A stretch of 45,765 nt of DNA from Clostridia bacterium (GTDB taxonomy: Bacteria > Bacillota > Clostridia > Oscillospirales > CAG-272), in assembly GCA_017456985.1 (NCBI GenBank), contig JAFTIH010000035.1, positions 1-45,765 of the forward strand, given 5' to 3'. Below are positions 22,097 to 45,579 of this stretch, in pieces. Positions within the stretch are counted from its first letter, which is position 1; each line of letters starts with the position of its first letter. The notes beneath the pieces were generated by a model. The model was given only the letters and a program-made list of their open reading frames with translations. It did not search any database and was not told where the DNA came from. The position numbers and the translations under genes were made by a program.

Positions 22097-22125
22097 TTGC
22101 ATTTTTTGGTTTTTTATGGTATGAT
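22097..22125 (+). promoter_or_regulatory. Promoter of the first peptide-LamG cassette
   Basis: TTGCAT (22097-22102), 17 bp, TGG-TATGAT (22120-22125). An AT-rich leader of about 60 bp follows. Confidence 0.7.
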
Positions 22126-22191
22126 GAAAACAATAGTATTATATTTATAATATAGAAAACTATCAACGCTTATCAAAGAGGAGGAGAAAAA

Positions 22192-22332
22192 ATGGAAAAG
22201 AAGTCTTACGAAGCGCCGATCGCCGACGAGATCCAGGTCGAAGAGTCTGACATTCTAAGCGAATCGCAGATCAAGACGAACGTCGAGGGCAGCGCAAGTG
22301 ACAACCCTTGGAGTCTTTTCAATTTTAACTAA
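22192..22332 (+). CDS. Short acidic peptide, paralogue 1; possible RiPP-type precursor
   Basis: 46 residues, pattern MEKKxYEAPxADEI followed by DILSESQIKTNVEGSA and ending DNPWSLFNFN. Ribosome site GAGGAGG lies 9 bp upstream. It is 37/46 identical to the peptide encoded at 26868-27011 and sits the same way, directly before a giant LamG protein gene. There is no hydrophobic signal sequence and no Cys. The leader-like N-terminus has the YxxP motif that RRE domains recognise in lasso-peptide leaders. Conservation is strongest over residues 20-35. Real translation is supported by the conserved frame between copies and by both ribosome sites. Function unknown. Confidence 0.85.
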   Translation: MEKKSYEAPIADEIQVEESDILSESQIKTNVEGSASDNPWSLFNFN

Positions 22333-22361
22333 CCAAAGCAAAAAGAATGGAGAAAAACGGT

Positions 22362-25300
22362 ATGAAAAAGAAAATTCTCAGCATGCTTCTTCTCGTGGCA
22401 ATGATCGTTACGGCAATTCCCGTAATGACGACCGCGGCTGGAGCGGCAGATAACGCAAATGCATATGCAAGCTACGAGGACCTGTACGTGCAGGATCATC
22501 TTGAGAGCTTATATATGGCATTCGTTGGCGACACCTCGTCTCTTTCCCTGGAGACTGCTGGCAGTGGCAGAAATGATAGCTCCTGGGCGAACAAGGTCGA
22601 GGGCGGTGCGAGAGCTTGGCTCAAGAACGATGGCATCAACAAGGGTGTCGCTTGGACGGTGGGCAAGTACGGCGGCGTCGGCTTTGACTACAAGTACGGC
22701 TACCTGGATGCAGAGGGCAACTTCGTTGCTCAGAAATTCTCCTGTCAGGATTCGGGCAACCAGGCGCTCATCTTTAACGGTATTAACGACCAAAATGGTA
22801 TTGCAGCCATGCCCGACGAGGACGTAACGGTTGAGTACGTGGCGGAATATAAGCCCGTTTACGTTGCGGCTGACGAAACGGGTATGACCTTCGCGACCGA
22901 TGCTGACGGCAATCGTATCGAGACCTACGGTGCGACCAAGGCAGACGGCACGCAGTATTATAGCGGTATCCCCGGTTATGATAACTGGCCCGTTGACTCG
23001 CTTGGCTGGTTCCAGGCTTATACTGCCAATATGGACGCATCGACCTGGAGTGGCGGCAGAAACGCCATCCACTTCGTTTTTGACAACAATACGTGGACGA
23101 GCGGCGGCAATGGTAGATGGGTCGGCAGTGGCGATGCTTGGAATGGTAACAGCGGCTTGAATATTCAATCCAATCCCTTCCACAAGCTGGGTAGCATCTA
23201 CTCCTACGCTTACGTGATCGATGAGACCGTCACCACCACGGAGGGTGGGACCACCACCACGGCTCTCTTTGAGCTGTATCGTGACGGTGCGCTGTACAAG
23301 TCCAACGCAAGCAAGCTCAGCAGCTCCGCAAACGGTGTTGCAGGCAACGGTTATTACAATCTCGCTGATAAGGGCAACGGTAACAGCTTCTTCCTTTCTG
23401 CGGGTGCTCCGACCGATTTCTACGTCATTCGTGTTTACTCCGATCTGCTCACAGCAGGTGAGAAGGCACAGAACCATATGGTTGACGTGCTTGCGTACTA
23501 CGACGTGAAGGTTCCTGATTACGATGCGACCATCGAGGGGCTGAAGGCTAACGCCGCAAGCTTTGCCGAGATCGGCTTTGCAAAGGATGACAGCACCTAT
23601 TCGGCAAACAAGACTGCCGTGCAGGCTCTCATAGATGACGCAAAGGCAACGGTCGCATATCAGCTTTACGTTACGGACGGCATCGTTGGTCTGTTCACTG
23701 CGTTTGACGGCGCTGATGACGAGACGGTCAATCTTGCGGCGAAGACTTGGGCAAACCGTGTCGCGGGTAGCTCCTACAACGCTTCGCTCAAGGCAGTACA
23801 CGGCTCTTGGAAGCAGGGTGACTTCGGCGGTATCGGCTTCGATATCTTCCTTGGTCAGATCGCCGACGACGGCACGGTTGGCGCAACCAGCGCGTACAGC
23901 ACGCACAAGGATCAGACCACGCGCCTTGAGTTTGACGTAAATCTCCTTCCCGCAGGCGACTACACGATCGATTACCTCGCTCTGTACCGTCATCTTTACG
24001 TAGCAGACGCTGAGGCTTCTGCTGCGGCCGGCGTTGGCGTGCCCGCAAAGGACGCAAACGGCGCATATCTCAACCCCGTGAACTACCCCGATATCGCCGC
24101 GAGCAGCGACATCGCTACCTGGGACTTCGGCAGCCGTCTGGGTAGCGAGGTTCTCGGTAACTTCCTCGGTATCCACCAGAAGCTCGGTATCTCCGAGGCT
24201 TGGGGTGGCGGCGCCTGGGCGGTTCGTTGGGGCTACGGCTTGGCAACGGGCAGATATAGCAACCCCACCTGGTTTAGCGGTATGAGTTCCGCCAGCGGTG
24301 CGCTCCATAATGGTCCCTCCGATCCTCTCCAGCAGAATGGTGTGCTGCAGTCCTTCTCCTATACGCGTGACGAAACTGCTACGACATATACGGTGACCGA
24401 AACGGTTGACGAAGTTGAAACCGAGGTCACGAAGGACGGCTTCGACACCATCTTCAGCATTTACAGGAATGCAGGTTTGTATAGCAAAGGCTCCGTGAGC
24501 GCGGCAAGCTATACGGCAGGCAACAAAGCCTTTTGGATGTCTGCTCAGCGTCCTGCGGACTTCTTCGCGGTTCGCGTATACGATCGCGTGCTGACCGTCG
24601 GTGAGCTGATGCAAAACCGTGCGGCAGATATCGCGCTGTACTACGGCTTGAATCTGACGCTGGATCTCGTTCAGGATGACGAGCTGAAGGCGAAGCTTGT
24701 GAAGGCGCTTGAGGGCGCATCCTTTGAGCTTAACGCAGACGCAAAGGCAGCAAAGGCACTTGAGCTGCAGGCGACGATCGATGCGATCGCTCCCGTAGAA
24801 AAGCTTGACGGCCTTGCAGATATGTACGTTCAGGGCGGCTTGACCGCGCTCTATACTGCATTTGCAGGTGACGCTTACGTTGACCTTGCAAACGGTACCT
24901 GGACCGACCGCGTTTCGGGTGCGACGGCAACCCTTGGCAACAAGGCTTACTGGGCAACGGGCGCAAACGGCGGTGTCGGTGTGACCCAGCTGTGGGGCTC
25001 TTACGACGGCGGTGTCTTTAATGCAACTGCGGCTACCAACACCTTCGACGTTCTCGGCACGCGCCTTGACTTCGGTATCGATCAGCTTCCTTACGACGAT
25101 TATACCGTTGAGTACGTGGCACAGTATAACAACGTTATGGCTGTGGACGCAAGCGGTAACCCCGTTGAGGCGATCATCAATATCGCGGACGCAACCTGGC
25201 CCTCTAACGCGGCTCTCGGCGGCAACCAGACGATTGCAAACAGCGCGGTAGATGCGCTCGGTAACCTTACGTCCTGGTCTGCCGGCGGACGCGATAAGGC

Positions 25301-26585
25301 ATTCGCCGCAGGTGCCGTGTCTCATTACGGCGGCGTAGGCTCCGTGGCATGGAAGCATAACGACGACCGTGATGTCAATGGATGGAACCACGGTAACGGT
25401 TATGAGTGCCTCTTTAAGGCGTCTGAGCTCTGGCAGACGCGCGGCTCCGTCAACACCTTTGAGATCAGCCGTGATACTACCACGCCTACCTACAACACCT
25501 TTACGCTGACCAAAAACGGCGCGACCTATTCTACGACGACGGATAAGGCTCGTAGCACGGCGGTAGAGCGTTCGTATGACAACGACTACTTCTACCTTGG
25601 TGAGCGTCTTTCCGTGGACTACTATGCAGTTCGTATCTACGACCGTCTTCTGACGGCTGAAGAGAGAACGCAGAACCACTTCGTCGATATCCTGCTGTAC
25701 TACGGTCTGGAAATTCCCGAGGCGTGCCTCAACGATGCGGCGGCAATGGATAGCATTGCAGCTCTGGTGGACGGCACCGCATTTGAGACGGATGCAAGCG
25801 TTTACAGTGCAACCAAGACGACCTTGCAGAACGCTATCGACACCGCATTCGTCACGATCACTGTTATCGTTGACGGTGAGGAAACTGCAACCGCAGTGAA
25901 CGGCGGCGTATGGAATGCTCCCGCTACCGTTGACGGCAAGGTGCTTCTCGGCTGGCAGTTGATGGGCGAGACGCCTGTTCTTTACGACGCAGGCGCATCG
26001 ATTCCCGTAGCTGAGGGCGACGTCCTTCGCGCGATCGCTCTGACCAAGCCCGCAACGACGAACGATTACAGTGTTAAGCTGATGGGCGAGGACGGTCTCG
26101 GTATGCGCTTCACGGCAACGCTTTCCAAGACCGAGTATCTGCTGCTTCTGGAAGCCTATGGCGAAGATAACGTTTCTCTCGGTATGCTCATCACGCCTGA
26201 GCGGTACGTTGAGCGCGCAGGCGTCTTCACCAAGGAAGGACTCAAGGCGTGGGCAGAGAGTCTTAACTCCGACGAAACACCCTACGTTGACATCCCTCTT
26301 GGCGGTGTTTGGAAGATGGAGGGCGACGTTCTGACGCTGGCAGGCTCGCTTTACAACTTCTCCCGGACGACGATTGAGAACAACATCTCTTTTGCTGCTG
26401 TCGCTTACGTTAATATCGACGTTGACGGCGACGGCGTGATCGACCAGACGGTTTACGGCGATTTCGCTGCGGAAACCTGCCGTACTGCAAAGGACGTTAT
26501 GGAATACGTGAAGGATTCGTTCTATGATGATCTTGGCGAAACCCAGCAGGGTTGGCTCAACAGCTTCCTTGCGAATTACAATTAA
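22362..26585 (+). CDS. Giant secreted protein with three LamG-like repeats
   Basis: 1407 residues. A signal peptide (MKKKILSMLLLVAMIV, cleavage near AGA/AD) is followed by three repeats starting at about residues 41, 434 and 820. Each opens with a DLYVQDHLESLYMAF-like line and closes with FYVIRVYSDLLT or YYAVRIYDRLLT, the concanavalin/LamG closing strand. Helical linkers separate them. From about 1166 there is an InlB-repeat-like beta domain (LLGWQLMGETPVLYDAGAS). From about 1237 there is a C-terminal domain (GEDGLGMRFTATLS; GVFTKEGLKAWAE) shared with the second giant protein. There is no sortase motif, dockerin or C-terminal membrane anchor. Probably binds extracellular glycan or protein. 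Start at 22362 because GGAG precedes it; an in-frame ATG at 22347 is the ribosome-site region itself. Confidence 0.85.
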   Translation: MKKKILSMLLLVAMIVTAIPVMTTAAGAADNANAYASYEDLYVQDHLESLYMAFVGDTSSLSLETAGSGRNDSSWANKVEGGARAWLKNDGINKGVAWTVGKYGGVGFDYKYGYLDAEGNFVAQKFSCQDSGNQALIFNGINDQNGIAAMPDEDVTVEYVAEYKPVYVAADETGMTFATDADGNRIETYGATKADGTQYYSGIPGYDNWPVDSLGWFQAYTANMDASTWSGGRNAIHFVFDNNTWTSGGNGRWVGSGDAWNGNSGLNIQSNPFHKLGSIYSYAYVIDETVTTTEGGTTTTALFELYRDGALYKSNASKLSSSANGVAGNGYYNLADKGNGNSFFLSAGAPTDFYVIRVYSDLLTAGEKAQNHMVDVLAYYDVKVPDYDATIEGLKANAASFAEIGFAKDDSTYSANKTAVQALIDDAKATVAYQLYVTDGIVGLFTAFDGADDETVNLAAKTWANRVAGSSYNASLKAVHGSWKQGDFGGIGFDIFLGQIADDGTVGATSAYSTHKDQTTRLEFDVNLLPAGDYTIDYLALYRHLYVADAEASAAAGVGVPAKDANGAYLNPVNYPDIAASSDIATWDFGSRLGSEVLGNFLGIHQKLGISEAWGGGAWAVRWGYGLATGRYSNPTWFSGMSSASGALHNGPSDPLQQNGVLQSFSYTRDETATTYTVTETVDEVETEVTKDGFDTIFSIYRNAGLYSKGSVSAASYTAGNKAFWMSAQRPADFFAVRVYDRVLTVGELMQNRAADIALYYGLNLTLDLVQDDELKAKLVKALEGASFELNADAKAAKALELQATIDAIAPVEKLDGLADMYVQGGLTALYTAFAGDAYVDLANGTWTDRVSGATATLGNKAYWATGANGGVGVTQLWGSYDGGVFNATAATNTFDVLGTRLDFGIDQLPYDDYTVEYVAQYNNVMAVDASGNPVEAIINIADATWPSNAALGGNQTIANSAVDALGNLTSWSAGGRDKAFAAGAVSHYGGVGSVAWKHNDDRDVNGWNHGNGYECLFKASELWQTRGSVNTFEISRDTTTPTYNTFTLTKNGATYSTTTDKARSTAVERSYDNDYFYLGERLSVDYYAVRIYDRLLTAEERTQNHFVDILLYYGLEIPEACLNDAAAMDSIAALVDGTAFETDASVYSATKTTLQNAIDTAFVTITVIVDGEETATAVNGGVWNAPATVDGKVLLGWQLMGETPVLYDAGASIPVAEGDVLRAIALTKPATTNDYSVKLMGEDGLGMRFTATLSKTEYLLLLEAYGEDNVSLGMLITPERYVERAGVFTKEGLKAWAESLNSDETPYVDIPLGGVWKMEGDVLTLAGSLYNFSRTTIENNISFAAVAYVNIDVDGDGVIDQTVYGDFAAETCRTAKDVMEYVKDSFYDDLGETQQGWLNSFLANYN

Positions 26586-26642
26586 GCAAGAACGGACGTA
26601 CTGCGATGCGTTTGCAGCGCAGTAGTCAAAACAGATTCCCGC

Positions 26643-26676
26643 AAAGCGGATACAGCCTTGGCTGTATCCGCTTTTT
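26643..26676 (+). terminator. Terminator of the first cassette
   Basis: AAAGCGGATACAGCC / GGCTGTATCCGCTTT, perfect 15-bp stem with two-base loop, T5 tail. The stretch from here to 26806 shows nothing else recognisable. Confidence 0.92.
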
Positions 26677-26806
26677 GTTTGTGAAACGAAATCAACGCGA
26701 GGGGATTTTCGTTCAAAAGGCGCCGCGAGTGCCATTTTCTTTTTTAAAAAACTTTTTGAAATCAACGGAATTTTCGGCTGATTTAAAAAACTGACGAAGA
26801 AAGATG

Positions 26807-26834
26807 TTGATTTTTTATTTTTTTGTGGTATAGT
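26807..26834 (+). promoter_or_regulatory. Promoter of the second peptide-LamG cassette
   Basis: TTGATT (26807-26812), 16 bp, TATAGT (26829-26834) with TGG two bases upstream. Confidence 0.65.
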
Positions 26835-26867
26835 AAAGTTGAAATGCTGTAAAAGGAGGTTATCGCG

Positions 26868-27011
26868 ATGGAAAAGAAACCTTACGAAGCGCCGAGCGCC
26901 GACGAGATCAAGATCGAAGAAACCGATATTTTAAGCGAGTCTCAGATCAAGACGAACGTCGAAGGCAGCGCCGGCGACAACTCTTGGAGCTTATTTGACT
27001 TTTTTAGCTAA
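26868..27011 (+). CDS. Short acidic peptide, paralogue 2; possible RiPP-type precursor
   Basis: 47 residues, same pattern as paralogue 1 (MEKKPYEAPSADEI ... DILSESQIKTNVEGSA ... WSLFDFFS). Strong AAGGAGGT ribosome site. Compared with paralogue 1 it differs mainly at positions 5, 10, 15, 16, 19, 36, 39, 44 and the very end, where it finishes in Ser rather than Asn. A C-terminal Ser is notable because HprK-like kinases of lasso-peptide clusters phosphorylate a C-terminal Ser, and an HprK-like kinase gene lies at 38580. That link is inference only. The gene is 49 bp upstream of the second giant protein. Confidence 0.85.
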   Translation: MEKKPYEAPSADEIKIEETDILSESQIKTNVEGSAGDNSWSLFDFFS

Positions 27012-27060
27012 TGCACCGCAATCGACCTAAGCAAAAATGAAAAGAATGGAGAAAACGAAA

Positions 27061-30000
27061 GTGAAAACACGCATACTCAGTCTTTTTCTTGCACTCGTGA
27101 CACTTCTTTGCGCCCTGCCCTTTGCGGCACAGGCAGAAGAAGCGGTAACGCCTGCGGCAGAAGAAACGAAAACCGAGCTGGCAGATTTTTACGTCAAGGA
27201 CGGGCTGGTTGCCCTCTTTACGGCGTTTGACGGCTCTTACATCAGCGGCTCCACCTGGACGGACCGTGTAAACGGTAAGAAGGCAACGCTGTCCTCCGTC
27301 AGCAAAAAGCAGTGGAAGCTCCGCGAGGGCGGCGGTGTCGGCTTTGATACCTTCTACGGTATGATCGACCAGTACGGCGTCTTCCAAACGGAGTCCGCTT
27401 ATAACAACGCAAGCGTGAACGCGGTGCGCGTGGACTTCGGTCTGTCCCTCTTTCCCCAGGAGGATATGACGATCGAGTACCTTGCGAAGTATCTGCCCGT
27501 TTACGTGGCGGATACAAGCGGCAATATCGCGCTTGACGAATACAAGCAGCCCATTGAGACCTTTGACGCGATGGGCAACGGTCCCTCGGACTTCGCCTCC
27601 TGGCGTATTGACTCGATCGGCTGGTTCGGCTCCTTTTCAACGCATATCGACGGCTATCAGTCGGGATGGGCGAGCACTGCCGCTGACCGTGGCACGCTGT
27701 TTTTCATTTTTGATATGCCTTATTGGACGGGCTCCAAAAACGGCTGGTGGGTTGGCTCGGGTGACGCGTGGACCTCGTACGGCGGTATGAGCAAAACGGG
27801 TGATCCCTTCCATCAGAACGGTACTATCCGTACCTATGAGTATTCCATCGACGAAACACTGACGGTGGCGGGAGACGGCACGCGCACCGTGACCGCGCTC
27901 TTCTCGATGCGCCGCGATCTTGTGCTGTATAACGACAACTCGAACAATATCAACTCCACGGCAAACGCTCAGGGCGGTGCCTGGTATAAGGAAGATGCGG
28001 ACTCCAATCAGATGTTCCATCTGTCCGCAGACCGCCCCACGGATTTTTACTCCATCCGTATTTACGAGCGTACGTTAAGCGATGAAGACCGTTTGCAGAA
28101 CTATGCGGCGGACGTCATCCATTACTACGGCCTGACGGGCGTGACCGAGGAGACCCTCCCCGCGCTGAAGGCTGTTTTGAAGGGCGGCAATTTCGGCTTT
28201 GCAACGGACGCGACCGAAAAGGCAGCCGTCAAAGCCCAGATCCTCGCTGCGCTTAAGGATGAGGCAATTATTCAGGCGCTGTACGCGCAAGAGGGCTTGC
28301 AGGCGCTTTATACGGCGTTTGACGACACCTACGTGGACCTTGCGGCAGGCACCTGGACGGATCGCATCGGCGGCAAGACGGCAACGCTTGGCAACAAGCA
28401 GTATTGGCATGTGGGCGAAGACGGCGGCGTTGGCTCGCTGATGCTGTGGGGTCAGTACGTTGGCGGCACCTTTACTGAGAGCGCCGTGACCAACAACGCG
28501 GACGTTTATGGCACGCGACTTAATTTCGGCATTGACCAGCTCCCCGCGACGGACTATACCGTGGAATACGTTGCCGAGTACAAGAATATTATGGCGACCG
28601 ACGCGAGCGGCAACCCCGTCAAGCCCATCGTTGAGATCGCGGATGCGACTTGGCCCGCAAACACCTCCTCCTTGAATGGCGGTATCGCCTACGGCTCGGT
28701 AGAGCAGTTCGGCAACCTGTTCGGCTATTCGCTCAAGCGAGATTCCTACTTTACGGGCAGCGACGAGGGCGGCTATTACGGCGGTCTTGGCGGTCTTGGA
28801 TATCAGTACACCATTGCTCGCCGTACCAATAACTGGAACATTGAATCCACCGTCCCGAACAACCAAGGTATCCTGCGGAAAACGGGTGTGGGCAACGTCT
28901 TCCACGAGCGCGGCGCGATCCATACCCTCGAGCTGTCGCGTGACTCGGAAAACGATACCACCAACGTCTTGACGCAGTATAAAGATCTTGCGCTTTGGGT
29001 ATCCGCAACCACCACCAACGTTTCCTGTGCCGACGAGCACACGGGCGGCAACGATTATTTCTATCTCGGTGAGCGCGTTTCGGTTGACTATTACGCCGTG
29101 CGTATTTACGATCGCCTTCTGACGGATGCCGAGAGAAAGTCCAATCGCCTTGCCGACCTCATCTTCTATTATGACCTGAACGCGACGGACGTCGCGAGCC
29201 TTAAGCGCCTTGCAGGGGCAATGGACTTCACGAAGTATCCCTTTGAGACGGATGCCTCCGCCCGTGCGGCAATGAAGACCACTCTCCAACAGCTCATCGA
29301 CCGAGAGGGCACCGAGGTGGGACTGTACGCACAGGACGGTCTGATCGCTCTTTGGACGGCGTTCGGCTCGGCGGACAGCGTCAACACCTCAACGGGTGTC
29401 TGGACGGACCGTATCACGGGAAGAGCGGCGACCCTCACGACGGCATCCCGTTGGTCGAAGGGCGCGCTTGGCGGTGTTGGCTTTAGCGGCCTTCACGGTA
29501 TGATCGGCGCGGACGGCGTTTATACCGCAACGTCTGCGTATAACAACACCAAGGAGGGCGGTCCTCGCCTTGACCTTGGCACCGCTCTCCTTCCCGAGGA
29601 GGACTTCACGGTCGAGTACCTTGCAATGTATCAGCCCATTTACGTGGCGGACGCAAACGGCAATATCGCCACCGACGCAGAGGGCAATCCCATTGAAACC
29701 TACGTTGCCGCAGGCAGCAACGGTAAGACCACGAGCTATGTCAATAGCCACCATAAGTGGCCCGTCGACGCGCTCGGCTGGTTCTCCGCCTTCACCACCA
29801 ACCTCGACGGCTATGAGTCGGGCTGGGGCAACGGCGGCAGAGGCACTATCTACTTTATATTCAATAACGTATATTGGAGCTCGGGTAACCTCGGCAACTT
29901 CGTTGGTCCTGGCGGTAACTACGGTGCAAGCAGCGGTATGAACGTGGCAGGCAACCCCTTCCATCAGAACGGTAGCATCCGCACCTACGAGTATTCCGTG

Positions 30001-32469
30001 GACGAGACGCTGACGGTAGCAGGGGACGGCACGCGCACCGTGACGGCACTCTTTGCTTTGCGTCGCGACCTTACGCTGTATAAGGATAACTCCACTCGCC
30101 TCAACTCTACGGATGGTACGGCGGGAGCGGGCTACTTCGACAAGGAAATTGAAGATGGCTCGTATATGTTCCACCTGTCCTGCTCGCGTCCTACCGATTT
30201 CTATGCGGTTCGTGTGTATGATCGCGTGCTGACGGATGCAGAGCGCGCAGAGAACCGCTTTGCAGATATTCTTAACTACTACGGTGTGGTTCTTCCCGAC
30301 GGCTATATGAACGACGAAGCACAGGTGGCATACACCAAGGAGCAGTTAGCCTCCATCGGTTTTGAGACGGATGCTTCCCGTTATGCGGCGACCAAGGCGT
30401 CCGTACAGGCGGCAATCAAGAGCGTTTACACCAATATTACGGTCGTGATCGGAGAAAAAGAAACCGAGACGACGGTGCTTGGCGACAAATGGCTCTCGCC
30501 CGAGGGCATCGAGGGCAAGATCCTCTTCGGTTGGAAGCTGCTCGGTGAGAACGATACCTATACGACTTACGAGGCGGGTGCGTCTATCCCCGTCAAGGAG
30601 GGCGACGTCGTTCGCGCCTTTGCACTGACCAAGCCCCAGACGATGAGCACGTCGAGCGTTAAGATGATGGACGAGGACGGTCTTGGTATGCGCTTTACGG
30701 CTACTCTTTCCAAGGGCGAATATTTGGAGCTTTTGGATGCGTACGGCAGTGAGAACGTTTCGCTTGGATTGATGATCACGCCCAGACAGTACGTGGAGCG
30801 TGCAGGCGTCTTTACCAAGGAAGGACTCAAGGCGTGGGCAGAGGGTCTTGGCTCGAGCGAAACGCCCTACGTTGACATTCCTCTTGCGGGCGTTTGGAAG
30901 ATGGAGGGCGATGTTCTGACACTGGCAGGCTCGCTTTGCAACTTCTCAAGCGTTACGATCGAGAAAAATATCTCCTTCGCCGCAACCGCTTATATCAACA
31001 TCGATAAAGACGGCGACGGTACCGTGGATCAGACGGTTTACGGCGATTTCTACGCAGGGGCTTGCCGCACCGCCAAGGAGGTTATGGAGACGGTAGATTA
31101 TCTCTACCGCGACACCCTGACCGATAAAGAAAGCGAGTGGCTGGACGCATTCCTTGCGTACTATGAAAACCGCACCTACGGCAACGAGGGTGATAAGACG
31201 GTTGCCGAGCAAAGACAAGAAATTCTCGTGGCAATGCAGATCGCCAAGAGTCAGCAGGTGAACTACACCGTGCATCCCTTCGCCGAGGGCGAGGTGGATG
31301 CGAAGTACGCCCACATTCAGGCGATCAGCTTTGACGGCTTGGATTATAACGGCAAGAAGACGCGCATCTTTGCGTATCTCGGACTTCCCGAGGGCGCATC
31401 TGCCGAAACGCCCGTTCCCGCAGTGGTGCTGATCCACGGCGGCGGCGGTAACGCTTATATGGAATGGGTGCGCCGCTGGAACGCGCGAGGCTACGCGGCG
31501 ATCGCGATGGAAACGACGGGCTATTTCCCCGTTACCCCGGGCGCAAATATCACCGAGGGCGCTTACAGCAACGCGGCACACGCATTCCCCGACTACATTC
31601 TCGAAACGCTTGGCGAGAATGCGGAAAACTACACTCTCGCACCCGATCGCTTCAGCGCGACCGAATACGCCGAGGTTGACACGATGTGGCATTATCACGG
31701 CATCAGCGCGGTTATTCTCGCTCACAACGTTCTGCGTCAGAACGAGGCGGTGGATAACACGAGGATCGGCGTGCACGGCGTGTCCTGGGGCGGTGTTCTG
31801 ACCGCTCACGTCATCGGCTACGATAACCGCTTCGCCTTCGCGGTACCCACCTACGGCTCCGCATACCTCGGCGAAGAGGAAAAGGCATTCTCCTCCTATG
31901 GCAACGCTTACGTAGACGATCTGTGGGCGCCTGAGAGAAATCTCTCGAACGCCACGATGCCCGTTATGTGGTTTGCTTGGGCAGACGACACCTGGTTCAT
32001 TATGAACGGCTATACCAAGTCCTACCTGCACCAGCTCCCGAACAACCAAAGCAGCAACCTGGTGGTGTTAAAGGATTGGGCGCACTCGCACGTGCAGACC
32101 TATTCCAAGGAACACGCTTACGCCTTTGCGGATGCGATCTGCTTTGGTGCGACGCCCTTCGTAACCTTTGAGAGCCAGCCTGTGGGACAAAACGTTTCCT
32201 GCAAGTTGAACGTCCCCGCGGGCGTGACGAACGTGGGCGTTCGTATCCACTACCTGACGGAGCCCATTGCCTACGACAAGGCAGGCTGCCCTTCGTCGCT
32301 CGTTGAGGATTTCAAGACGAATACGACGGCGCTTTCGTTCGATAGCGAACCGGGTATGATCACGGGCACCATTCCCGCTGACGTGAAGTATTACTACATC
32401 AGCGTACTCTTCACGACGGTAGAGGGAAAGAGCCTTGAGGTCTCCTCCACCTTCGTTATGGTGAAATAA
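27061..32469 (+). CDS. Giant secreted protein: three LamG-like repeats plus alpha/beta-hydrolase (esterase-like) domain
   Basis: 1802 residues from a GTG start. GTG is preferred because GGAG stands before it exactly as in the first cassette; an in-frame ATG lies at 27037. Signal peptide, then LamG-like repeats from about 41, 406 and 753, the InlB-like beta domain from about 1125 and the shared C-terminal domain from about 1200 (DEDGLGMRFTATLSK). From about 1413 an alpha/beta-hydrolase follows: oxyanion segment VVLIHGGGGNAY, nucleophile GVSWGG (Ser about 1575), acid in ADDTW (about 1642-1643) and His in WAHSH (about 1675-1677). This resembles acetyl-xylan-esterase/dienelactone-hydrolase or S9-type enzymes. 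A role in extracellular deacylation of plant or host glycans is likely but unproven. No surface anchor is seen. Confidence 0.87.
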   Translation: MKTRILSLFLALVTLLCALPFAAQAEEAVTPAAEETKTELADFYVKDGLVALFTAFDGSYISGSTWTDRVNGKKATLSSVSKKQWKLREGGGVGFDTFYGMIDQYGVFQTESAYNNASVNAVRVDFGLSLFPQEDMTIEYLAKYLPVYVADTSGNIALDEYKQPIETFDAMGNGPSDFASWRIDSIGWFGSFSTHIDGYQSGWASTAADRGTLFFIFDMPYWTGSKNGWWVGSGDAWTSYGGMSKTGDPFHQNGTIRTYEYSIDETLTVAGDGTRTVTALFSMRRDLVLYNDNSNNINSTANAQGGAWYKEDADSNQMFHLSADRPTDFYSIRIYERTLSDEDRLQNYAADVIHYYGLTGVTEETLPALKAVLKGGNFGFATDATEKAAVKAQILAALKDEAIIQALYAQEGLQALYTAFDDTYVDLAAGTWTDRIGGKTATLGNKQYWHVGEDGGVGSLMLWGQYVGGTFTESAVTNNADVYGTRLNFGIDQLPATDYTVEYVAEYKNIMATDASGNPVKPIVEIADATWPANTSSLNGGIAYGSVEQFGNLFGYSLKRDSYFTGSDEGGYYGGLGGLGYQYTIARRTNNWNIESTVPNNQGILRKTGVGNVFHERGAIHTLELSRDSENDTTNVLTQYKDLALWVSATTTNVSCADEHTGGNDYFYLGERVSVDYYAVRIYDRLLTDAERKSNRLADLIFYYDLNATDVASLKRLAGAMDFTKYPFETDASARAAMKTTLQQLIDREGTEVGLYAQDGLIALWTAFGSADSVNTSTGVWTDRITGRAATLTTASRWSKGALGGVGFSGLHGMIGADGVYTATSAYNNTKEGGPRLDLGTALLPEEDFTVEYLAMYQPIYVADANGNIATDAEGNPIETYVAAGSNGKTTSYVNSHHKWPVDALGWFSAFTTNLDGYESGWGNGGRGTIYFIFNNVYWSSGNLGNFVGPGGNYGASSGMNVAGNPFHQNGSIRTYEYSVDETLTVAGDGTRTVTALFALRRDLTLYKDNSTRLNSTDGTAGAGYFDKEIEDGSYMFHLSCSRPTDFYAVRVYDRVLTDAERAENRFADILNYYGVVLPDGYMNDEAQVAYTKEQLASIGFETDASRYAATKASVQAAIKSVYTNITVVIGEKETETTVLGDKWLSPEGIEGKILFGWKLLGENDTYTTYEAGASIPVKEGDVVRAFALTKPQTMSTSSVKMMDEDGLGMRFTATLSKGEYLELLDAYGSENVSLGLMITPRQYVERAGVFTKEGLKAWAEGLGSSETPYVDIPLAGVWKMEGDVLTLAGSLCNFSSVTIEKNISFAATAYINIDKDGDGTVDQTVYGDFYAGACRTAKEVMETVDYLYRDTLTDKESEWLDAFLAYYENRTYGNEGDKTVAEQRQEILVAMQIAKSQQVNYTVHPFAEGEVDAKYAHIQAISFDGLDYNGKKTRIFAYLGLPEGASAETPVPAVVLIHGGGGNAYMEWVRRWNARGYAAIAMETTGYFPVTPGANITEGAYSNAAHAFPDYILETLGENAENYTLAPDRFSATEYAEVDTMWHYHGISAVILAHNVLRQNEAVDNTRIGVHGVSWGGVLTAHVIGYDNRFAFAVPTYGSAYLGEEEKAFSSYGNAYVDDLWAPERNLSNATMPVMWFAWADDTWFIMNGYTKSYLHQLPNNQSSNLVVLKDWAHSHVQTYSKEHAYAFADAICFGATPFVTFESQPVGQNVSCKLNVPAGVTNVGVRIHYLTEPIAYDKAGCPSSLVEDFKTNTTALSFDSEPGMITGTIPADVKYYYISVLFTTVEGKSLEVSSTFVMVK

Positions 32470-38579: not shown

Positions 38580-39311
38580 ATGCCACGTTACCGTATAGCT
38601 GATTTTCTGTTTGAGATGGCGCCGCGTTATTCGCTGCTTACCTCGGTTTGTGAGAAATATCGCGTCGAAACGGACGCTTCCCCCGACTGTACGGTGCGCG
38701 TGACGGACGAGGAAATCGCCGCCGTTACCGCGCTTCCCGAAGGGTTTGCCGAGGATTACGGAGAAAGCCTTTCGGCTTGCCGCGCCGTTTGTAAATATGC
38801 GACGGAGCACGGCGCGCTGATGCTCCACGCGGCAGTGATCGAGGTGGATGGCAAGGCGTACGCCTTTTGCGCCCCCAGCGGCACGGGTAAAAGCACGCAT
38901 ATCTCGCTTTGGCGCCGTCGCTTCGGCAAGCGCGTGCAGATCATCAACGGCGATAAGCCCCTGCTTCGCGAAAAGGAGGGCGTCTTTACCGTGTACGGCA
39001 CGCCCTGGTGCGGCAAAGAGGGATGGAACCGCAACGCAAGCGCCCCGCTTGCGGGAATTTGCATCATAACGCGCGCGGCAGAAAACACCATTCGGCGCCT
39101 ATCCCCCGACGCGGCGATCGAGCCCATCTTCCGCCAGCTTCTTAAGCCTGCGGATGCCGCCAGCCTTGCGACGACGTTAAGCCTTGCCGACCGCTTGCTT
39201 TCCACCGTTCCCGTTTACCTGCTTGGGTGCAACGTATCCGAGGAGGCGGCGGAAATTGCGTACGCTATGATGACGGGCGAGCCCGTCCCCCCGAAAAAAG
39301 AAGGAGAATAA
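38580..39311 (+). CDS. HprK-like P-loop kinase
   Basis: 243 residues. The first 80 residues are a variable N-terminal domain. From about residue 82 (HGALMLHAAVIEVDGKAYAF) the fold matches the HPr kinase/PEP-carboxykinase-like family with P-loop APSGTGKSTH (about 97-106) and IINGDKPLL, where Asp stands in place of the usual paired acidic residues. Classical HprK N- and C-terminal features (such as K4-type loop sequences) are not recognised, so the target is unlikely to be HPr. Small kinases of this type, next to PqqD/RRE proteins, modify peptide precursors in some lasso-peptide clusters. It is followed after 4 bp by the pqqD-like gene. Ribosome site AAGGAGGGG. Confidence 0.85.
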   Translation: MPRYRIADFLFEMAPRYSLLTSVCEKYRVETDASPDCTVRVTDEEIAAVTALPEGFAEDYGESLSACRAVCKYATEHGALMLHAAVIEVDGKAYAFCAPSGTGKSTHISLWRRRFGKRVQIINGDKPLLREKEGVFTVYGTPWCGKEGWNRNASAPLAGICIITRAAENTIRRLSPDAAIEPIFRQLLKPADAASLATTLSLADRLLSTVPVYLLGCNVSEEAAEIAYAMMTGEPVPPKKEGE

Positions 39312-39315
39312 GAAT

Positions 39316-39579
39316 ATGAAGATCAAAGACGGTTATATGCAAAGCACCGTGGCAGGGCGCGCTGTCGTCGTGCCGCTGGGTCACTCCAATACCTTCCGCA
39401 ATATGATCAAGCTCAACGAAACGGGCAAGTTTTTGTGGACGTTTTTGACGGAGGAAACCACCCGCGATGCGCTCGTAGATGCTCTCGCGGCGGAATATGA
39501 GATCGACCGCACGATCGCAGAGCGCGACGTGGACGCCTTCCTTGCTACGCTTCGTGAGTTCGGCGTTCTTGCGGAATAA
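39316..39579 (+). CDS. PqqD-like (RiPP recognition element) protein
   Basis: 87 residues, the normal length of stand-alone PqqD proteins. Shows the three-stranded plus three-helix pattern with TFRNMIKLNETGKFLWTFL and the helical tail DRDVDAFLATLREFGVLAE-like ending. PqqD/RRE domains bind leader peptides and pass them to modifying enzymes. No radical SAM enzyme, cyclase or protease gene adjoins it; the only partner is the HprK-like kinase four bases upstream, with the AAGGAGA ribosome site inside the kinase gene's end. Its peptide partner may be the YxxP-containing peptides at 22192 and 26868, by inference. Confidence 0.85.
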   Translation: MKIKDGYMQSTVAGRAVVVPLGHSNTFRNMIKLNETGKFLWTFLTEETTRDALVDALAAEYEIDRTIAERDVDAFLATLREFGVLAE

Positions 39580-39642: not shown

Positions 39643-39924
39643 TTAATTGATAAAATCCCAGTTTAAGTCGCCAATAACGGGATCGGGGTCAAGCGGGTCG
39701 TACACGGAACCGCTGCTGCCGCCGTTACCGCCATTGTCGCCGTTGCCGCCGTTACCGCCGGTATTGCCACCGTTACCACCGTTACCGCCGGTATTACCCG
39801 CGTCGCCGTTAAAGACGCCGCAAATGCAAAGAATCAGCACGGCAAGGCAAACGAGCGCAACAAGGGAGAGCGTGATCAGTTGAATTTTTTTGGTTCGTCT
39901 TTTGCTTCTTCTATGCTTATGCAT
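39643..39924 (-). CDS. Small single-pass membrane protein with Gly/Asn-rich tail
   Basis: 93 residues: a basic start (MHKHRRSKRRTKK), one membrane helix (IQLITLSLVALVCLAVLILC), then a GGNGGN-type low-complexity stretch of about 30 residues and an acidic end (DPLDPDPVIGDLNWDFIN). Orientation by the positive-inside rule puts the Gly/Asn tail outside. Start at 39924 follows GAGGTG. It lies 69 bp downstream of the CofE-like gene on the same strand and may be co-transcribed. Function unknown. Confidence 0.75.
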   Translation of the reverse strand: MHKHRRSKRRTKKIQLITLSLVALVCLAVLILCICGVFNGDAGNTGGNGGNGGNTGGNGGNGDNGGNGGSSGSVYDPLDPDPVIGDLNWDFIN

Positions 39925-43101: not shown

Positions 43102-45579
43102 ATGAAGCTTTCATTTTCAACCAACCGCTGGAACGGTACCTCGATGGAGGAGTTTTTCCGTCTGGCGAAGGAATATCGCTTTGCGGGCGTCGAGATCCAC
43201 AGCGTCCGCGAATGCCCCGAGGAAAAGCGCACCGCCCTCTATCACGCGGCGGTGTCGGGCAACCTTTCCATTTGCTGTATTGACGTAGGGGAGTCGATCG
43301 GTGCCGCCGATCCCACCGCCGCGATGGCAGAGCTTGACGAAGCCGTTGCCGCCGCCGTGCGTCTGCACGCTCCTTACGTCCGCTTGCGCGCGGCAGACGA
43401 GGAGGGCGCCAAGGAAAACGCTGAGGCGTTCCTTAAAAAAGCCCTTCCCATCGCGCACAAGGCAGACGTGATCCTTCTGATCGAAACGGTGGGCGTTTAC
43501 GCCAACACCGCTACGCTGCGCGAAACGCTCAACGCGTTCGCCGACGATAACCTTGCGGCGCTCTGGGACTTCTATTATCCCTACACGGTAGCAGGGGAGA
43601 GCGCAGAGGACACCATTCGCAACCTCGGTGCCTACGTTTGCCACGTCCACGTCAAGGACGCGGACGGTGTGGGCGAATATCGCCCCGTGGGTGAGGGGAA
43701 GCTCCCCATCGCCGATTTTATGAACGCGCTCCGCTCCGTCAACTACGACGGCTTTCTCTCCGCCGAGTGGGACCCCGATTGGATGGAGGGTCTTGGCGAT
43801 GCGGATATCATCTTCCCGCACTACGTGACCTATATGTCCCGCTTCCGCGACCCCTCCAAGAACCGCGCCACGCTCTACGACAACAAAGCCAAGACGGGTA
43901 AGTTCGTCTGGAAGAAGGAGGCGCTGATCGAAAAGACCTTCGGCGAGGTGCTCGACACGATGGTGGAGCATTTCCCCGATCAGTACGCCTTCAAATATAC
44001 CACGCTTGACTATACGCGCACCTACGCCGAGTTCCGCGAGGACGTGGACACCTTCGCCCGCGCGCTCATTTCGATGGGTGTCAAGGCAGGCTCGCACGTT
44101 GCGGTGTGGGCGTCCAACGTCCCCGAGTGGTATATCGCTTTCTGGGCGACCACCAAGATCGGTGCGGTGCTCGTCACCGTCAACACCGCCTACAAGATCC
44201 ACGAGGCAGAGTACCTTTTGCGCCAGTCGGATACCCATACGCTGATTATGGAGAAGGGAAGCCGCGACTCGCACTACGACGAGATCATTGCCGAGCTTTG
44301 CCCCGAGCTTGCCGAATTAAAGCCGGGTGAGCCCTTGCACGCAAAGCGCCTGCCCTTCCTTCGCAACGTCATCACCGTTGGCTACAAGCAGAAGGGTTGC
44401 CTTGATTTCGAGGCGGCAACCGCCCGCGCGTCGCGCGTTCCCCGCGAGGAGGTCGCAAGACTTGCGGCGCAGGTGGACGTTCACGACGTTTGCAATATGC
44501 AATATACCTCGGGTACCACGGGCTTCCCCAAGGGCGTTATGCTGACGCACTACAACGTCGTCAATAACGGTAAGTGCATCGGCGACCGTATGGATCTTTC
44601 GACGGCGGACCGTATGATGATCCAAGTGCCTATGTTCCACTGCTTCGGTATGGTGCTGTCGATGACCGCGTCCATGACGCACGGCGTCACCGTTCAGCCC
44701 TTGCCCTACTTCTCCCCCAAATCGGCGCTTGCCTGCATCCACAACGAGCATATTACCGTGTTCCACGGCGTGCCGACGATGTTTATTGCTCTTTTAGAGC
44801 ATCCCAACTTCAAAAAGTCGGATTTCTCGTATATGCGTACGGGCATTATGGCGGGCTCGCCCTGCCCCATCTCGGTTATGCGTGACGTCGTTGATAAAAT
44901 GCATATGAGCGAGATCACCATCGTTTACGGACAGACCGAGGCATCCCCCGGCTGCACGATGAGCTCCACCGACGACCCGCTTGAGGTGCGTGTCGGCACG
45001 GTCGGACGCGCTCTGCCCGAGATCGAGTGCCGCATCGTGGATCCCGAAACGGGCGAGGAGCTTCCCGACAACGTGACGGGCGAGTTCGTGGCACGCGGCT
45101 ACAACATTATGAAGGGCTACTACAAGATGCCCGAGGCGACTGCCAAGGCGATCGATAAGGACGGCTGGCTCCATACGGGCGACCTGGCTTGCCGCACGCC
45201 CGAGGGCAACTACCGTATCACGGGACGCTTAAAGGATATGATCATCCGCGGCGGTGAAAACATCTACCCCAAGGAGATCGAGGAGTTTATCTACACCCAT
45301 CCCAAGGTGGGCGACGTACAGGTCATCGGCGTACCCGACGAGCAGTATGGCGAGGAGATCATGGCGTGCATCATTCTCAAAGAGGGTGAGAGCATGACCG
45401 AAAAGGAAATGAAGGATTATATTCTTGCCCATATGGCAAAGCACAAGGTGCCGCGCTATATTGAGTTCGTGACCGCCTTCCCGATGAATGCGGCGGGCAA
45501 GATCCTCAAATACAAAATGCGCGAGGATGCGATTGAAAAGCTTGGTTTGCAAAAAGCAGGTAAGATCGTAACCGCATAA
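43102..45579 (+). CDS. Fusion: xylose-isomerase-like TIM barrel plus AMP-forming acyl-CoA synthetase
   Basis: 825 residues. Residues 1-255 are an IolE/hydroxypyruvate-isomerase-like barrel (AP-endonuclease-2 fold), with the metal-ligand pattern of that fold visible: LIETVG, WDFYYP, HVHVKD, SAEWD. Residues about 265-825 are a fatty-acyl/medium-chain CoA ligase-type adenylating domain: YTSGTTGFPKG (about 467), YGQTEAS (about 612), HTGDLA, GRLKDMIIRGGENIYPKEIE, and C-terminal Lys in GKILKYK. No stop or frameshift separates the halves. It would activate a carboxylate with ATP and CoA, with the barrel perhaps isomerising a sugar-like substrate first. Ribosome site AAGGAG. Follows the LeuA-like gene; an amidohydrolase gene follows. 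Confidence 0.92.
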   Translation: MKLSFSTNRWNGTSMEEFFRLAKEYRFAGVEIHSVRECPEEKRTALYHAAVSGNLSICCIDVGESIGAADPTAAMAELDEAVAAAVRLHAPYVRLRAADEEGAKENAEAFLKKALPIAHKADVILLIETVGVYANTATLRETLNAFADDNLAALWDFYYPYTVAGESAEDTIRNLGAYVCHVHVKDADGVGEYRPVGEGKLPIADFMNALRSVNYDGFLSAEWDPDWMEGLGDADIIFPHYVTYMSRFRDPSKNRATLYDNKAKTGKFVWKKEALIEKTFGEVLDTMVEHFPDQYAFKYTTLDYTRTYAEFREDVDTFARALISMGVKAGSHVAVWASNVPEWYIAFWATTKIGAVLVTVNTAYKIHEAEYLLRQSDTHTLIMEKGSRDSHYDEIIAELCPELAELKPGEPLHAKRLPFLRNVITVGYKQKGCLDFEAATARASRVPREEVARLAAQVDVHDVCNMQYTSGTTGFPKGVMLTHYNVVNNGKCIGDRMDLSTADRMMIQVPMFHCFGMVLSMTASMTHGVTVQPLPYFSPKSALACIHNEHITVFHGVPTMFIALLEHPNFKKSDFSYMRTGIMAGSPCPISVMRDVVDKMHMSEITIVYGQTEASPGCTMSSTDDPLEVRVGTVGRALPEIECRIVDPETGEELPDNVTGEFVARGYNIMKGYYKMPEATAKAIDKDGWLHTGDLACRTPEGNYRITGRLKDMIIRGGENIYPKEIEEFIYTHPKVGDVQVIGVPDEQYGEEIMACIILKEGESMTEKEMKDYILAHMAKHKVPRYIEFVTAFPMNAAGKILKYKMREDAIEKLGLQKAGKIVTA

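Follow-up and report, generated by a model that had tools for sequence, protein, structure and literature searches.

Leader peptides encoded beside giant secreted proteins in Clostridia: a candidate substrate family for a PqqD/HprK-like kinase pair

Introduction

What does a peptide of 46 or 47 residues do directly in front of the gene for a giant secreted protein? The question is raised by a stretch of 45,765 nucleotides (the window), which is the whole of contig 33 (JAFTIH010000035.1) of a gut Clostridia bacterium (assembly GCA_017456985.1; genome of 1.8 Mb, 93.6% complete) and in which such a pair occurs twice in tandem. An earlier sequence-only reading had offered three options for the peptide, namely a co-secreted partner, a processed signal or a modified peptide, and of these the modified peptide fits best. 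The peptides are probably precursors resembling ribosomally synthesized and post-translationally modified peptides (RiPPs), guided by a RiPP recognition element (RRE), matured in trans and coupled to secreted proteins. Support at the sequence level comes from the many peptides per genome that share a leader, from a kinase/PqqD pair in the genome, and from the closeness of peptide genes to genes for secreted proteins.

Results

Peptide 1 (22192–22332, forward strand; 46 residues) consists of an RRE-type leader (YEAP...SDILSES) and an acidic, Trp-containing tail, and is followed by giant secreted protein 1 (22347–26585, forward; 1412 residues), which has three LamG-like repeats and a C-terminal domain and belongs to no Pfam family. 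Peptide 2 (26868–27011, forward; 47 residues) is followed by giant secreted protein 2 (27037–32469, forward; 1810 residues), with three LamG-like repeats, a C-terminal domain and an esterase. This tandem arrangement, already described by the sequence-only reading, was confirmed: a strong Shine-Dalgarno sequence precedes both peptide open reading frames (ORFs), and both giants have signal-peptide-like starts. The likely true starts of the giants are ATG at 22362 and GTG at 27061, each 9 nt past a GGAG, which places them 29 nt (unit 1) and 49 nt (unit 2) after the peptide stop. The proposal that each unit has its own promoter found partial support. A terminator-like hairpin (26643–26674, forward) separates the units and a promoter-like site, a consensus match only (26807–26834, forward; TTGATT-16-TATAGT, 9/12), lies ahead of peptide 2; upstream of peptide 1 the scan gave a single forward promoter consensus match (22124–22151, 10/12) and reported no terminator-like site.

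The peptides are more alike than the giants, as had been claimed, with 37 of 45 aligned residues identical against 38% identity over the full length of the giants. The Ka/Ks comparison that had been proposed for the peptides gave, by NG86, a non-synonymous rate (dN) of 0.086, a synonymous rate (dS) of 1.04 and a dN/dS of about 0.08, a rough value given the few codons. Together with the homologues in relatives described below, this bears out the view that the peptide itself is under selection, as a conserved gene in its own right. Both giants carry three similar repeats (in giant 1 at about residues 45–400, 441–777 and 840–1130), and their C-terminal domains look, from the alignment, much more alike than the rest. 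The same domain order thus holds up to an additional domain at the C-terminus of giant 2 alone, an alpha/beta-hydrolase resembling acetyl xylan esterase (31279–32124, forward; Pfam AXE1 2.7e-7, Peptidase_S9 9.5e-7, DLH 2.1e-4). The label LamG found no support in Pfam, which gave no LamG match at E≤1 in either giant; a search of giant 1 against solved structures returned antibody chains as the only matches (E 0.3). Compared with 49 related giants, the C-terminal domain matched strongly in one locus alone (L104, 1.1e-20), and a profile comparison with the main group of 34 related giants found nothing, so that homology beyond L104 is unsupported. A third LamG-like giant of the same genome (2602 residues; L290:2206–10014, on contig 4) has no leader peptide seen adjoining.

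The two window peptides were used as queries against 98 relatives. The related short ORFs are similar to them mainly in the N-terminal half, and a profile built from this shared half matched in 57 of the 98 genomes at E≤0.5, with 32 matches in one of them. From 80 fetched regions, which are the stronger ones among the matches listed, 88 peptides (E<0.05) were kept; statistics on distinct peptides cover 87, leader conservation 63 leaders and the family-model scan 65 members. The leader consensus is MKKKYEAPELEIIKLDAEDIITTS, a fixed pattern of the form YxxPExEIIxL...DIITTS that leads into an acidic, usually Trp-containing tail. Position D20 is invariant among the leaders, Y6 and S25 are each conserved at 90% or more, and P or A is usual three residues after the Tyr. 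Tails are net negative in 85 of 87 peptides, carry Trp within the last 15 residues in 70 and contain Cys in only 3. By eye, the residue after the DIITTS block is G in many peptides and P, D, S or Q in others; in the window peptides this junction reads SES-Q. None of the 65 members scanned against Pfam and NCBIfam fell into a family, the matches being to single members only (E 0.04 to 0.08), and no description of the peptides or of their pairing was found in open PubMed Central text. The statement of the sequence-only reading that no described family pairs these genes therefore stands, and we regard the peptides as an undescribed, unnamed family.

Tails follow the genome more closely than leaders do: identity was 0.56 within genomes and 0.33 between them for tails, and 0.47 and 0.37, respectively, for leaders. 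In two genomes, 19 tails of one type are encoded by 19 different DNA sequences and yield 5 protein variants, with 1235 synonymous against 224 non-synonymous codon differences; in the leaders of the same peptides the values were 841 and 1204 (all pairwise and hence not independent). Since so many DNA sequences give so few protein variants, the tail, more than the leader, is held by selection in those two genomes. Two peptides of locus L132 and two of L171 have identical first 30 residues and were confused in the neighbour listing, which makes one gap value there meaningless. At L171:4424–4627 (genome G011) a second leader copy is altered in sequence past TTS and is probably a decayed or frameshifted peptide gene.

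The window holds, overlooked by the sequence-only reading, an HprK-like kinase gene directly before a gene for a PqqD-type protein (38580–39579). The kinase (38580–39311, forward; 243 residues) has a GTGKST P-loop and is a recurrent neighbour of PqqD; its NCBIfam scores (ScmC 1.5e-7, HprK_rel_A 2.1e-5) are under cut-off, and G103-K104, T106, H83 and D125 are invariant in an alignment of 14 sequences. Its neighbour is a stand-alone PqqD-type RRE (39316–39579, forward; 87 residues; PF05402, 67.2 bits), to which the closest NCBIfam models are lasso PqqD chaperones, again under cut-off. It lies about 12 kb from peptide 2, and closer linkage was seen in some relatives. HprK adjoins PqqD in 22 of 30 relative loci, 5 of which also hold a leader peptide match, and of 80 named loci 53 have PqqD no more than 1.5 kb from HprK and 15 hold a leader peptide match, in some cases weak. 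Loci L143 and L156 show the gene order giant-peptide-HprK-PqqD.

Peptide and kinase also go together across genomes. In a draw of 196 genomes from the class, the kinase was found in 57 (E≤1e-10) and the peptide in 28 (E≤0.01), counts that come from two lists with the same handles and size, taken as one draw. All 28 peptide genomes, which span 17 listed families, fall within the 57 kinase genomes (hypergeometric 2e-18, a value that ignores shared ancestry), and 10 of them have a peptide on the same strand within 1 kb of HprK. Within the genus, peptide matches at E≤0.5 occurred, counted by eye, in 44 of 51 genomes with a stand-alone PqqD versus 2 of 9 without (Fisher 2.5e-4); the two exceptions are both 59% complete. 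At the order level, where the different threshold of E≤0.01 was used, the peptide was found in 6 of 12 genomes with PqqD versus 0 of 26 without (p 3.3e-4), and relaxing the threshold to E≤0.5 brought weak matches in three PqqD-less genomes (G068, G071 and G087).

Within 4.5 kb of the kinase at 86 loci we found PqqD at 38, peptidase-like genes at 37, genes that we take from their appearance to be ABC-transporter-like at 23 and, on the same footing, nucleotidyltransferase-like genes at 13. A signal-peptidase-like protein was present in 19 of 30 genomes, that is, in 19 of 20 with PqqD and 0 of 10 without, and its gene lies within 450 nt of PqqD in 16 of the 19. The copy of the window's own genome is on contig 27; it matches archaeal-type signal peptidase I under cut-off, on which score we label it Sec11-like. 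Kinase matches also occur in Faecalibacterium, Ruminococcus and Blautia. A locus of Bifidobacterium tissieri (L231) holds an HprK-like kinase, a leader-like peptide (7.4e-4) and a membrane-anchored Trp-tailed protein, and this actinobacterial locus suggests spread beyond Clostridia.

The genes next to the peptides mostly encode proteins with signal-peptide-like starts, as judged by a hydropathy rule of our own and not by SignalP. Among 88 genus peptides, 44 sit downstream of an ORF of at least 900 residues, nearly always within 70 nt, and 22 sit upstream of an ORF with a signal-peptide-like start. A recount with a 70-nt limit gave an upstream neighbour for 50 of 89 peptides (13 with and 2 without a signal-peptide-like start, and 35 truncated at the region edge), and 13 of 17 neighbours were signal-peptide-like where the peptide had a downstream neighbour only. 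When 20 cut giants, picked because the giant lay upstream and including one locus twice, were fetched whole, 18 of the 19 distinct complete ones (1366–2736 residues) had a signal-peptide-like N-terminus. In other families, from which 20 regions of seven genomes were taken among strong matches in many-copy genomes, the same was true of 18 of the 20 upstream neighbours that were complete. The values for ordinary close gene pairs were 21 of 70 in the first 80 regions, 5 of 46 around the extended giants and 10 of 43 in the other families.

The sequence-only reading had named LamG as the partner of the peptide, which could not be upheld. Pfam assigned six complete partners in relatives to GH95 (two, with F5/8), BspA-type leucine-rich repeats, calcineurin-like phosphoesterase, endonuclease/exonuclease/phosphatase or no domain. 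Conversely, a leader peptide adjoins LamG-like giants elsewhere in 3 of 20 fetched regions, counted by eye and all of one genome, and a further case is the giant of genome G024 in L265. A LamG-specific pairing was accordingly rejected, the partner domains being different and most of the LamG-like giants examined elsewhere being without a leader peptide. In L302, L303 and L304 (G004) LamG-like giants alternate with peptides in tandem, most clearly in L302 (giant-peptide-giant-peptide), at closer spacing than in the window. LamG-like giants without a separate peptide in L296, L298, L293 and L294 (G009, G024) share a GEWEWLLSNEY-like C-terminal motif. L148 and L169 (G030, G050) show the order Trp-tailed giant, protein of 419 or 459 residues without signal peptide, peptide, signal-peptide-like protein.

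Tails of the peptide type were also found at the ends of larger proteins. Of 183 secreted or cut ORFs, 5 have an acidic Trp tail at their end, versus 0 of 308 others, and four of the five are giants; for three of these four the local peptide is the best match among 88, and for the fourth it ranks 68. In several genomes, the window's included, acidic Trp-type tails end small membrane-anchored or lipoprotein-like ORFs beside the kinase. The window's example is a membrane-anchored Gly-rich protein (39643–39924, full ORF to 39984, reverse strand) with the C-terminus DLNWDFIN, which resembles the peptide tails; the window's own peptide tails rank 3 of 54. A small signal-peptide-like ORF lies directly upstream of HprK in 30 of 98 loci, several of them doubtful, and 6 have Trp in the last nine residues. 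Comparing ORF with local peptide tails at 21 loci, a set that takes in doubtful ORFs and two genomes seen twice, gave ranks from 1 to 53 of 54 and a permutation p of 0.003. The match is clear in L223 and L234, and many other HprK loci do not match. The ends of ORF tail and local peptide read ELPFVPAF and ELPFVPAE in L223, and FGPIIDG and FGPIIG in L234. In L223, L234, L175, L211, L228 and L231 the gene directly before HprK is small and lipoprotein-like or membrane-anchored, and its product has an acidic linker and tail.

Discussion

The family and its setting comprise a short precursor whose conserved leader holds an RRE recognition sequence and, linked to it, a PqqD-like RRE encoded in the genome. 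W/Y/LxxP/L/I is reported as such a recognition sequence (PMC12710340), and HPr-kinase homologues are reported to phosphorylate a C-terminal Ser of lasso precursors (PMC8498205). Leader-RRE binding and core modification are predicted here, the kinase and peptidase genes being present. By this scheme, PqqD would bind the [Y/F]xx[P/A] leader, the HprK-like kinase would phosphorylate Ser/Thr of the peptide, the signal-peptidase-like protein would cut off the leader past the ...DIITTS block, and the acidic tail would be exported and act outside the cell with the secreted protein from the same mRNA. That the peptide is a substrate of the PqqD/HprK set is very likely in our judgement. Phosphorylation of the peptide is a proposition that we hold evenly balanced, and joint action of peptide and secreted protein outside the cell is conceivable, with the scales tipped slightly the other way. 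Because one tail is nearly constant across many carriers within some genomes, we think that the tail serves the secretome as a recognition element (a tether or receptor ligand) and is not an antibiotic. A wider and rather unlikely scheme would be a trans-encoded C-terminal tag system, in which a genome-specific acidic tail on leader peptides, on the C-termini of some giants and on small membrane-anchored proteins or lipoproteins beside the kinase, matured by PqqD, the HprK-like kinase and the signal-peptidase-like protein, would serve at the cell surface to tether, sort or recognise giant glycan-active proteins outside the cell.

Several points weigh against precursors of the RiPP type. Modification, cleavage and export of the peptide are predictions made from sequence. 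The hydropathy rule has a high background (81 of 265 positive). In some genomes the tails resemble each other more than the leaders do, which is unusual for RiPPs, and in others less; a copy in L171 whose tail is lost after the leader looks decayed. Known lasso kinases target a Ser at the C-terminus, and by eye few of the listed peptide tails end in Ser. In seven genomes of the genus PqqD is present and no peptide was detected, and 29 of the 57 HprK genomes are without a peptide match; by eye, the only kinase in 22 of these is of a longer type that aligns in part. Next to the window kinase no exporter was recognised, the rest of the genome not having been searched for one.

Among known systems, the Firmicutes lasso peptides with an HPr-type kinase (paeninodin, pseudomycoidin) come close. 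They share with our loci the discrete PqqD (B1/RRE), the HprK-like kinase and, in other genomes, nucleotidyltransferase-like and ABC-transporter-like genes, and a YxxP-type leader is common to both sides. They differ in that the genus has no B2 leader peptidase over cut-off and a signal-peptidase-like protein beside PqqD instead, and in that the precursors here are many, scattered and paired with secreted proteins; the likeness would extend to leader binding and phosphorylation. The precursors of prochlorosins (ProcA/ProcM) are likewise scattered over the genome, and their cores vary widely. They are reported to be modified by a solitary promiscuous enzyme, a point of likeness; here, however, one tail type recurs within some genomes and tails are nearly free of Cys. 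C-terminal sorting tags such as LPXTG, PEP-CTERM and the type IX CTD are comparable as short C-terminal tails on secreted and membrane-anchored proteins, whereas the tail described here mostly has a small gene of its own, which also encodes a recognition leader. Finally, RRE-Finder found about 4,000 of almost 8,000 discrete 'lasso' RREs to co-occur with a leader peptidase and cyclase (PMC7470986). The available part of that paper names no kinase or secreted partner for them, both of which are present here, and the peptide system may account for part of the remaining discrete 'lasso' RREs.

Other explanations of the peptides have to be weighed. We doubt that the tail is a strain-specific pheromone or reporter which, released from a copy beside each gene, signals how much secreted protein is made. 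The greater identity of tails within genomes than between them and the peptidase-like and ABC-transporter-like genes near the kinase (37 and 23 of 86 loci) would suit it, but 32 matches in one genome are many for a signal, and a diffusible signal leaves unexplained why three giants carry a C-terminal tail whose closest match is the tail of the peptide in their own locus. An intracellular pilot or chaperone that aids the giant partner through the Sec pathway is improbable: tight spacing with signal-peptide-like genes and the lack of a signal peptide in the peptide itself speak for it, but partner domains vary while one tail type recurs within a genome, and the tie to PqqD, kinase and peptidase is left unexplained.

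Lasso precursors have as hallmarks a Thr at the penultimate leader position, Gly1 of the core and Asp/Glu at positions 7–9. That the peptide is a true lasso peptide of unusual sequence would agree with its YxxP leader, with the kinase, with a discrete PqqD nearest to lasso PqqD models and with nucleotidyltransferase-like and ABC-transporter-like genes (named by appearance) in other genomes, as reported for Firmicutes lasso clusters (PMC7533575, PMC8498205). We consider it very improbable all the same. Of 98 relatives, 4 had a B2 peptidase (PF13471) over cut-off, none of them in the genus (best E 0.0137 in the window's own genome, below cut-off); no cyclase was found in the window proteins scanned, the genome not having been searched for PF00733; and an NCBIfam model for lasso precursors picked up 1 of the 65 peptides (E 0.06). 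Because B2 was not found in the genus, we do not class the peptide as lasso, an assignment that is largely refuted there. Scarcely credible is an upstream short reading frame that merely regulates translation of the giant: the window peptides do stop shortly (29 and 49 nt) ahead of the likely giant starts, but in relatives the peptide follows a giant in about half of the genus set (44 of 88), and its amino-acid sequence is under selection.

The RRE-guided reading places a kinase/PqqD pair, which occurs widely in gut Clostridia and for which no lasso B2 partner was found in the genus, in a genomic context and supplies it with a family of substrates. If the product does act with secreted proteins, it would add a so far unseen layer to the ways in which gut bacteria hold or control their giant and often glycan-active proteins.

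Elsewhere in the window (43102–45579, forward), an ORF of 825 residues combines a xylose-isomerase-like TIM barrel with an AMP-binding acyl-CoA synthetase and could be a true fusion.

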